Assembly: GCF_001854245.1 (NCBI RefSeq) | Contig: NZ_CP015381.1 | Location: 1,771,001 to 1,835,000 of the forward strand | Origin: Desulfococcus multivorans | Lineage (GTDB): Bacteria > Desulfobacterota > Desulfobacteria > Desulfobacterales > Desulfococcaceae | Reading direction: 5' to 3' | Length of the DNA stretch: 64,000 nt | In this document: piece after piece, positions 18,297 to 19,874 of the stretch | How positions within the stretch are numbered: the stretch's first letter is position 1 | How the letters are laid out: every line of letters starts with the position of its first letter | Made by a program: the position numbers and the translations under genes | The notes under the pieces: generated by a model | Told to the model about the DNA's origin: nothing | The model's input: only the letters and a program-made list of their open reading frames with translations | The model's database searches: none

Positions 18297-18581
18297 TCAG
18301 CAGCATCGCGTCCCTGCTGATCCTTTGATGCGGTGTATCCAGGTCGAGATGATGTAGGCGGCACAGCCTACGCCCGGGGTGACTGCGATGGCTTTTGTGG
18401 GGCAGTTCCGCGCGCAGGCGCCGCACTCCATACAGGCGTCGATGTCGCGGATGACCGCCTGTTTTTCCCGCACCGTGAAGATGCGGTGAGGGCAGACCGT
18501 CTCGCACATGCCGCAGCCCACACACCGGCCCGTATCAAGCTCCAGGGTAGCGACACCGCCGATATATCTAAAATCTTTCAT
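18297..18581 (-). CDS. hgcB: mercury methylation ferredoxin HgcB
   Basis: 94 aa. HgcB supplies electrons to the corrinoid protein HgcA during methylation of Hg(II) to methylmercury in anaerobes. Seen: two 4Fe-4S motifs, CVGCGMCETVCP and CMECGACARNCP, a further conserved Cys in TPGVGCAAYII, and a C-terminal pair of adjacent Cys (RCC end), the combination that separates HgcB from ordinary ferredoxins. The N-terminus FRYIGGVATLELD also fits. It lies 90 bp after hgcA on the same strand, the canonical order hgcA-hgcB. Confidence 0.93.
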   Translation of the reverse strand: MKDFRYIGGVATLELDTGRCVGCGMCETVCPHRIFTVREKQAVIRDIDACMECGACARNCPTKAIAVTPGVGCAAYIISTWIHRIKGSAGTRCC

Positions 18582-18671: not shown

Positions 18672-19874
18672 CTACCCGAAAAACGGGGCTGCAAACCAGA
18701 CTGCGACGGCGATCAAGCCGGCGGCGACTTGGGCCGGGATTGCCCTGCGCATCTCTTTTTCCACCCCCGAAGGGGAGGTGTAGGGCGTTGAACCGGTAAA
18801 GTTCATGGCCAGATAAGAGCCGACAGCGCCGGTCCAGAGCATCAGCGAAAGGGATTCCCAGGCGTCCAGCCTCCCGTTGAAAAGCCAGGTGTTCGCCACG
18901 CCGGCCACGATGCCGGCCAGGGCCCCGCTGATCCAAAACTCCCGCCAGGGAAAGTGGGGCAGGAGGAAAGGCACGATCACCGCCCCGGCCAGGATGCCGA
19001 AGAGCGTGGCGCACACGGCGGGGATTCCCCGGGAAAGGGCGGCATCCATAGAAAATATCCCCGGTCCGAAACCTGAGAGGAACAGGGTCGCGATGATGAC
19101 GACGGCCAGCGCTTTTCGCAGCAGAAGGATCTCCACAGGCGTCAGGACGGCACGCTCCCGGAAGGTAAAGGTTACCGTCCGCATGGCCTGGTCGGCCGTT
19201 TTGCCCGCCTGAATGAAGGCGGGAATGTCGGCGGCCCGTATCGGGCCGTAGATGACCTTGAAACCGCAGATTTTCTTTACCTGGTGGGCGGCGATCCCCG
19301 TGGCGGAGAGTTGCGGCAGGATCAATTCCCGGTGGGAGACGATCTCTGCGAGCCGGGACCTGTTTACCCGGCGGACGACTTCTTCGGTGGAGAAGAGCCC
19401 TTTTCCGGCGGCGCACCATACATTGATCCCCCGGGTGTCAGCCGCCAGGATCCAGGCATCGAGGCCTCCCAGCTCTTTCCGGAGAGCGTCGAAGGTGAGC
19501 TTGTAGTTGGCGGTCATGAGCACCGGCGATTCCGGGCCGGGCGTTCCCACGCAGTAGAGACCGGGGACCACCTTGTAATTGTACCGCCCGATGCCGAGGC
19601 GAGTCTTGACGGTGCCGAGCTTGTCCCGGAGCGAGACCGCTGTTTCAACACGGGGAACGGGTCCTGCGGACGTCTCCACAAAACCGTCTACATAAGGCTC
19701 GATGACATACCCCGGCCGTTCATGGACCCCGGCCTCGGGGTCGGGCTTGGGGCCTCAGCAGGGCGCATCACCCGTCGGCGTCCCGAGGATGATCTGCGGT
19801 CCGCAGACATTCGGCCGTGCGTCGGGAGGAGCGACGAAAACAGGTCCCAAATCGGAATGTTTTGACTTATTCAT
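18672..19874 (-). CDS. hgcA: mercury methylation corrinoid protein HgcA, apparent selenoprotein
   Basis: HgcA transfers a methyl group from its cobamide cofactor to Hg(II). Seen: the cap-helix motif NVWCAAGK whose Cys (residue 154 in the numbering used here) is the lower cobalt ligand, the corrinoid-binding domain before it and about five C-terminal membrane helices ending in NFTGSTPYTSPSGVEKEMRR. A GTG at 19679 would give 335 aa, but the family-like sequence DPEAGVHERPGYVIEPYVDGF lies upstream of it in the same frame, with no start codon between it and a TGA at 19755-19757. The frame continues above that TGA to an ATG (19872-19874), giving 400 aa with a Cys-Sec pair (DAPC-U-GPKP, Sec at residue 40). 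A SECIS-like hairpin follows the TGA. I therefore call UGA decoding as selenocysteine; a frameshift or error is less likely because both sides are coding-like. Confidence 0.88.
19725..19742 (-). promoter_or_regulatory. candidate bacterial SECIS hairpin of hgcA
   Basis: Counting from the base after the UGA, nucleotides 13-18 (GACCCC) pair with 25-30 (GGGGUC) around the loop GAGGCC; an extra G-C pair can shorten the loop to AGGC. Spacing of 18 nt from UGA to the apical loop and G residues in the loop match the rule for bacterial SECIS elements (for example fdhF of E. coli), which recruit SelB. Confidence 0.65.

Follow-up and report, generated by a model that had tools for sequence, protein, structure and literature searches.

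The HgcAB proteins make toxic methylmercury, and the hgcA gene of Desulfococcus multivorans raises the question of whether a UGA in its frame is a stop codon upstream of the gene or a codon within it. The gene lies in the window, i.e., the whole stretch of 64,000 nucleotides that was analyzed (contig NZ_CP015381.1, positions 1,771,001 to 1,835,000 of the forward strand). As an earlier note on this DNA proposed, hgcA very probably encodes a selenoprotein: translation would start at ATG 19874, a hairpin past UGA 19757 would bind SelB, which would bring Sec-tRNA-Sec to this codon, and the product would have its Cys39-Sec40 pair at the margin of the flexible N-terminal tail that precedes the corrinoid domain of HgcA (Table 1). 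The sequence support for this reading consists of the frame itself, the recurrence of the UGA at one site, the exchange of Cys and Sec among relatives, a selected hairpin and the machinery encoded in the genome, and it is from these that we infer actual insertion of selenium into HgcA.

A table in a 2026 review lists HgcA (NF040863) with the motif CU, citing Zhang and Gladyshev (2008) and Haft and Gwadz (2023), and HgcB (NF040864) with the motif GVGU, citing the latter (PMC13188914). HgcA as a CU selenoprotein is already in print (Haft and Gwadz, 2023, as represented in citing papers), and the window's hgcA adds a well-supported case. The CU-motif HgcA of PMC13188914, which was found via truncated annotations that extend across a UGA, belongs to the same family and has the same order of Cys and Sec, while the UC, lone-U and shifted-pair variants and the HgcB-Sec exclusion described below are absent from the available passages of that paper. 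A literature search for HgcA combined with an in-frame UGA found no paper, and neither the main text of Zhang and Gladyshev (2008; PMC2398784) nor the deep-Sep paper (PMC12013277) gave a match to the terms looked for, as far as the text of each was available.

The hgcA frame across the UGA

The read-through frame runs on the reverse strand from ATG 19874-19872, with an in-frame stop upstream (TGA 19886-19884), to the stop at 18674-18672, and contains a single internal TGA, in DAPC-U-GPKP. The coordinates and codons that the earlier note had given for this TGA (19755-19757), for the ATG upstream and for the surrounding motif are all correct. Reading the frame also confirmed that no ATG, GTG or TTG lies between the UGA (19757-19755) and GTG 19679, as had been claimed, and the expectation that an annotator would start at that GTG and lose approximately 65 residues was borne out by standard ORF calling, which yields 335 aa of the 400-aa frame. 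Annotations starting at GTG 19679 lack the CU motif, and clones or structural models derived from such annotations would lack it too.

The read-through protein matches NF040863 with 453.1 bits (cut-off 275), the match beginning at residue 73, and contains the HgcA cap helix N(V/I)WCAAGK as NVWCAAGK, in which Cys154 is invariant across a 16-row alignment. Apart from this full HgcA match, the genome (single contig, 4.455 Mb) holds a single weak and partial one (34% identity, 122 residues). The model for HgcAB-like fusions, NF043039, reached 210 bits against a cut-off of 285; hgcA and hgcB are separate genes here.

Table 1. Features of the hgcAB locus, in positions of the window
Feature	Positions	Strand	Remarks
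hgcA, full frame with the UGA as predicted Sec	18672..19874	-	400 aa, CU at residues 39-40; NF040863 match, AlphaFold model
N-terminal 39 codons	19758..19874	-	lost with a start at GTG 19679, together with the predicted Sec codon and the 25 codons from UGA to GTG
In-frame UGA, predicted Sec codon (residue 40)	19755..19757	-	Cys codon 19760-19758 immediately precedes it
SECIS-like hairpin, 7 bp, loop AGGC (19735-19732)	19725..19742	-	loop starts at +20 from the UGA; register is that of the helix counted over 42 sequences
GTG taken as start by standard ORF calling	19677..19679	-	335-aa product
hgcB, dicluster ferredoxin	18297..18581	-	NF040864, 123.8 bits (cut-off 99); Cys at GVGC; C-terminal Cys pair

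Recurrence of the UGA and exchange of Cys and Sec

In a phylum sample of 395 genomes, 123 had an HgcA match at E <= 1e-30, and 110 loci were taken from 109 of these; 14 genomes with only partial, short or weak HgcA matches were left out, as were the second matches of G279 and G355. Among the genomes left out, G122 has two TGA codons in its partial match. In 42 of the 110 loci, a TGA lies 105-111 codons upstream of the cap-helix NVWC; the motif there is CUG or CUP in 32, CUA in one and UC in four, with no directly adjacent Cys in the remaining five. Five further TGAs in the scanned stretch come before the Met at which translation starts and were treated as normal stop codons. The best 80 loci from named genomes were added to the sample, 22 of them with a TGA at the same place. 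Since the cores of four of the resulting 190 loci duplicated those of others, the combined set comprises 186 distinct HgcA genes, of which 64 have the TGA, in a set that is enriched for relatives of the window. This fraction, together with the repeated exchange of states described below, means that the Sec site is widely used among the genomes examined.

The nearest relative among the matches listed is an uncultured Desulfococcus MAG (L135, 73% identity), which, like L136 and L137, reads EAPCUGP or DAPCUGP. The recurrence of the TGA in these separate records speaks against a sequencing error. An alignment of 64 rows was built from the window's protein and 63 proteins chosen by hand from 73 listed named-locus proteins, and represents nearer relatives. 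Its UGA column contains Cys or Sec in 63 rows (20 TGA and 43 Cys) and Arg in one, so that Cys is found in 43 of the 44 rows that lack a TGA; more distant relatives are more varied. The earlier note had anticipated that homologues would show Cys-Cys here, and TGA-less homologues do read through with CC. Over the wider set that includes the best 80 named loci, the tails of the 122 distinct TGA-less genes have CC in 75, Cys without CC in 30 and neither in 17, states that were scored by pattern match, as were those of HgcB, and some of the Cys-less tails are cut or masked sequence.

A start codon upstream of the TGA is present in all 64 TGA genes of the combined set (ATG in 61, an alternative start in three), and 57 of the 64 also have a downstream in-frame GTG or TTG, or in nine cases ATG. 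Median dN/dS, calculated from 22 of the 24 rows of the window's clade, is 0.65 upstream of the UGA, 0.23 in the first 45 codons after it and 0.16 in the core. The second value agrees with the expectation of coding sequence downstream of the UGA. The tail upstream of the UGA, where dN/dS is weakly below 1, is little constrained apart from the motif; Cys directly precedes the UGA in most TGA genes.

These observations bear on the explanation that the UGA is a true stop, that hgcA starts at GTG 19679 and that the frame upstream is open by chance. Standard ORF calling gives just such a 335-aa protein, and residue 73 is the first that the NF040863 match covers, but relatives have codons similar to the 25 that separate UGA and GTG here (GPKPDP..ERPGYVIEPYVDGF), the low dN/dS extends over the first 45 codons past the UGA, and TGA-less homologues with CC are read straight through. 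Furthermore, the TGA recurs at one site and is accompanied by a selected hairpin (see below), and the appearance of a true stop is known from the five genes in which a TGA precedes the start Met. A true stop is, on this evidence, extremely improbable.

Several loci depart from the usual arrangement. The order Sec then Cys (UC) occurs in L067, L080, L083 and L072, a U with no adjacent Cys occurs in L069, L082, L091 and L115, and L126 reads C-L-U. In the HgcA of a Desulfuromonas MAG (L189), a TGA lies in an upstream second Cys pair (SCUPP), 130 codons before the cap helix; in this gene a hairpin follows the SCUPP TGA and the usual region contains CC, and it was counted among the TGA-less genes.

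A SECIS-like hairpin after the UGA

The hairpin of the window's hgcA, GACCCCG-AGGC-CGGGGUC, starts 12 nt past the UGA. The stem GACCCC/GGGGTC reported earlier is present and is extended by one G-C pair, giving 7 bp and a loop of AGGC at +20. Bacterial SECIS elements have a G in the first loop positions. Taken alone, the window's hairpin did not stand out: the z-score of a 71-nt stretch was -0.53 against dinucleotide shuffles, which is not significant, and the synonymous-shuffle p was 0.164. An Rfam search of the window at gathering thresholds returned no family. The significance of the hairpin rests on comparison across relatives and not on the window's single sequence.

In this comparison, the region after the UGA was folded along with 200 synonymous-codon-shuffled versions of it, and TGA-less genes were treated in the same way at the matching place; 61 of the 68 TGA-less loci entered the synonymous-shuffle comparison and 65 the comparison of loops and stems. 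Folding beyond coding need was evident in the 42 TGA genes (mean z of -1.22) versus the 61 TGA-less genes (+0.12; Mann-Whitney p = 1.8e-8), and genes taken singly gave p < 0.05 in 10 of 42 versus 5 of 61. A G in the first two loop positions of the best stem was found in 40 of the 42 TGA genes versus 29 of the 65 TGA-less ones.

A helix formed by columns 19-25 and 30-36 of the DNA alignment of the 42 sequences had 69.7% paired cells, a figure lowered by a shifted register in some TGA genes, versus 54.5% in shuffles, none of 500 of which scored as high. Its covariation was 0.418 versus 0.203 in shuffles, and versions of the helix slid along the alignment reached at most 49.3% pairing and 0.202 covariation. 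Two of five pair measures were not above shuffles, i.e., changes on both sides (6 versus 5.9) and further pair types (17 versus 17.4). The stem of the window's hairpin (7 bp, loop AGGC) is in the main register.

Selenocysteine machinery and a second SelB

The earlier note had suggested that the genome be checked for sel genes, and SelA (619 bits), SelB (361 bits), two SelD proteins and tRNA-Sec (77 bits) were all found in it above curated cut-offs. The two selD genes (C1:392680-393600 and C1:2844887-2845810; L049 and L050) each exceed the cut-off and each contain one in-frame TGA. SelA is present in all 42 genomes with a TGA-containing hgcA and in 60 of 67 without the UGA, so that all seven SelA-less genomes lack the hgcA UGA. 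The association of SelA with the UGA is consistent but weak, because most UGA-less genomes have SelA as well and four of the seven SelA-less genomes are less than 83% complete; for the former reason the presence of SelA was set aside as a discriminator of TGA genes.

The genome also encodes a second SelB (SelB2, C1:1714493-1716385; 274 bits in its frame), which adjoins a tRNA(UCA) ending in U73-CCA and is separate from the main SelB and the tRNA-Sec with G73. This arrangement brings up the alternative that the UGA is recoded but read as Cys, or as a mixture of Cys and Sec, by SelB2 and its neighboring tRNA. In a passage of PMC8762117, G73 is given as the base of tRNA-Sec and U73 as the determinant of tRNA-Cys for an archaeal enzyme. 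The SelB2/U73 tRNA locus is perhaps the non-canonical tRNA-Cys/SelB pair that has been published. However, SelB2-like matches (E up to 1.1e-129) occur in just nine of the 42 genomes with a TGA-containing hgcA. In the remaining 33, only one SelB was seen, and it is less similar (E of 4e-107 or weaker), although most of the genomes are not closed and a SelB2 could be missed in them; three of the 33 (G376, G357 and G088) have an hgcA from the window's own clade. In addition, the form of the hgcA hairpin is that usual for bacterial SECIS elements. Because these 33 genomes, three of them with an hgcA from the window's clade, have one, less similar SelB, Sec appears to be the better reading of the hgcA UGA; decoding as Cys is very unlikely and would be a minor fallback in the window's genome.

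ARAGORN detected a tRNA at the SelB2 loci of all nine TGA-hgcA genomes, with the anticodon UCA in three, including the window's genome, and GCA in six; all nine tRNAs are 92 nt long and end in U73-CCA. The SelB2/tRNA locus of the window's genome (G000) spans C1:1714445-1716517 (L041, L033, L215). The 691-aa SelB2 query ORF reaches into the tRNA, and its true start is probably an ATG after the tRNA. SelB2 loci elsewhere have the anticodon UCA (L216, L217, L219-L222) or GCA, classified as tRNA-Cys by ARAGORN (L223-L228), and no tRNA was shown at SelB2 locus L218.

Position and possible role of the Cys-Sec pair

An AlphaFold model of the selenoprotein reading of HgcA, built with the 64-row alignment, has a mean pLDDT of 89. 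Confidence is low in residues 1-30 (about 40-51) and 31-40 (mean of 56), and rises to 85 in residues 41-50 and then to 88, so that in the model the CU pair lies where a flexible tail ends and order begins, ahead of the corrinoid domain. Long helices at residues 276-399 are candidate C-terminal membrane helices, and hgcB is next door. The large subunit of CFeSP has no membrane domain and takes part in a reaction different from that of HgcA. Structures of this subunit (4c1n, 2ycl, 2h9a, 4djd) share the corrinoid-binding fold with HgcA at 27-31% identity over 124-149 columns. The best fold match was 9a0b, a computed model of HgcAB (with the same title as PMC7305189, strain ND132), at 58% identity over 326 columns; it shares both the corrinoid domain and the membrane helices with the window's HgcA, and its chain has 329 residues versus 400.

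In strain ND132, Cys73 of HgcB is essential, its change to Ala having abolished activity, and the C-terminal Cys pair of HgcB was proposed to move Hg(II) or CH3Hg+, according to the parts of PMC7305189 that were available. By analogy with this C-terminal pair, we infer that the Cys-Sec pair of HgcA may have a role with Hg(II) or CH3Hg+: the soft pair could help to catch Hg(II), pass on Hg(II) or CH3Hg+, or keep a thiol reduced beside the corrinoid. Because some genes have no Cys pair in the tail, the available sequences suggest that the pair is not essential in all HgcA proteins. If the proposed reading is true, Sec beside Cys at the entrance of HgcA would be a strong soft-metal ligand dependent on the supply of selenium, and mercury methylation could therefore respond to selenium.

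Evolutionary history and HgcB

On a FastTree tree of the 186 HgcA cores, calculated without the N-terminus, the window falls in a clade of 24 rows with the UGA in every row (local support of 100), and the tree as a whole requires no fewer than 16 transitions between presence and absence of Sec. The codon at the Sec site is AGA, one base from TGA, in L077 and L102. An HgcA in a chromosome record labeled MAG Phycisphaerales bacterium (L213) groups with rows from the phylum sample.

The window's HgcB has Cys at GVGC, a position occupied by Sec (GVGU) in another clade. By our own equivalence, drawn against the available part of the ND132 paper (PMC7305189), this Sec is apparently at the position of ND132 Cys73. 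The 18 rows with HgcB-Sec form a single clade; all of them have a 7-bp hairpin after the HgcB UGA and none has HgcA-Sec, and Sec in both proteins was found in none of the 176 distinct loci with a scored HgcB, including the best 80 named loci; no HgcB was found in five TGA-less and two TGA loci, and three had another form. Because HgcB-Sec is one clade, and one change on the tree, the apparent mutual exclusion of HgcA-Sec and HgcB-Sec is suggestive only.

A broader and rather unlikely proposal is that HgcAB carries at most one selenium site, which would have moved in evolution between the Cys of HgcB that is essential and the Cys-rich flexible N-terminal tail of HgcA (as CU, UC, lone U or in another Cys pair). 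Under this proposal, the same UGA could be served in genomes like that of the window by two SelB/tRNA(UCA) systems, of which one inserts Sec and the other Cys, giving rise to HgcA with or without selenium.

Two further variants of HgcB were observed. In 14 rows (e.g., L004, L138, L140 and L142), DDGCGCA (NPDDGCGCA or alike) replaces PGVGCA, a variant that, among the loci examined, is confined to the window's HgcA clade. The HgcB of L173 has, besides the GVGU site, a second in-frame TGA in its tail (NASCUDSGCC), which is a candidate Sec codon, a stop or an error.
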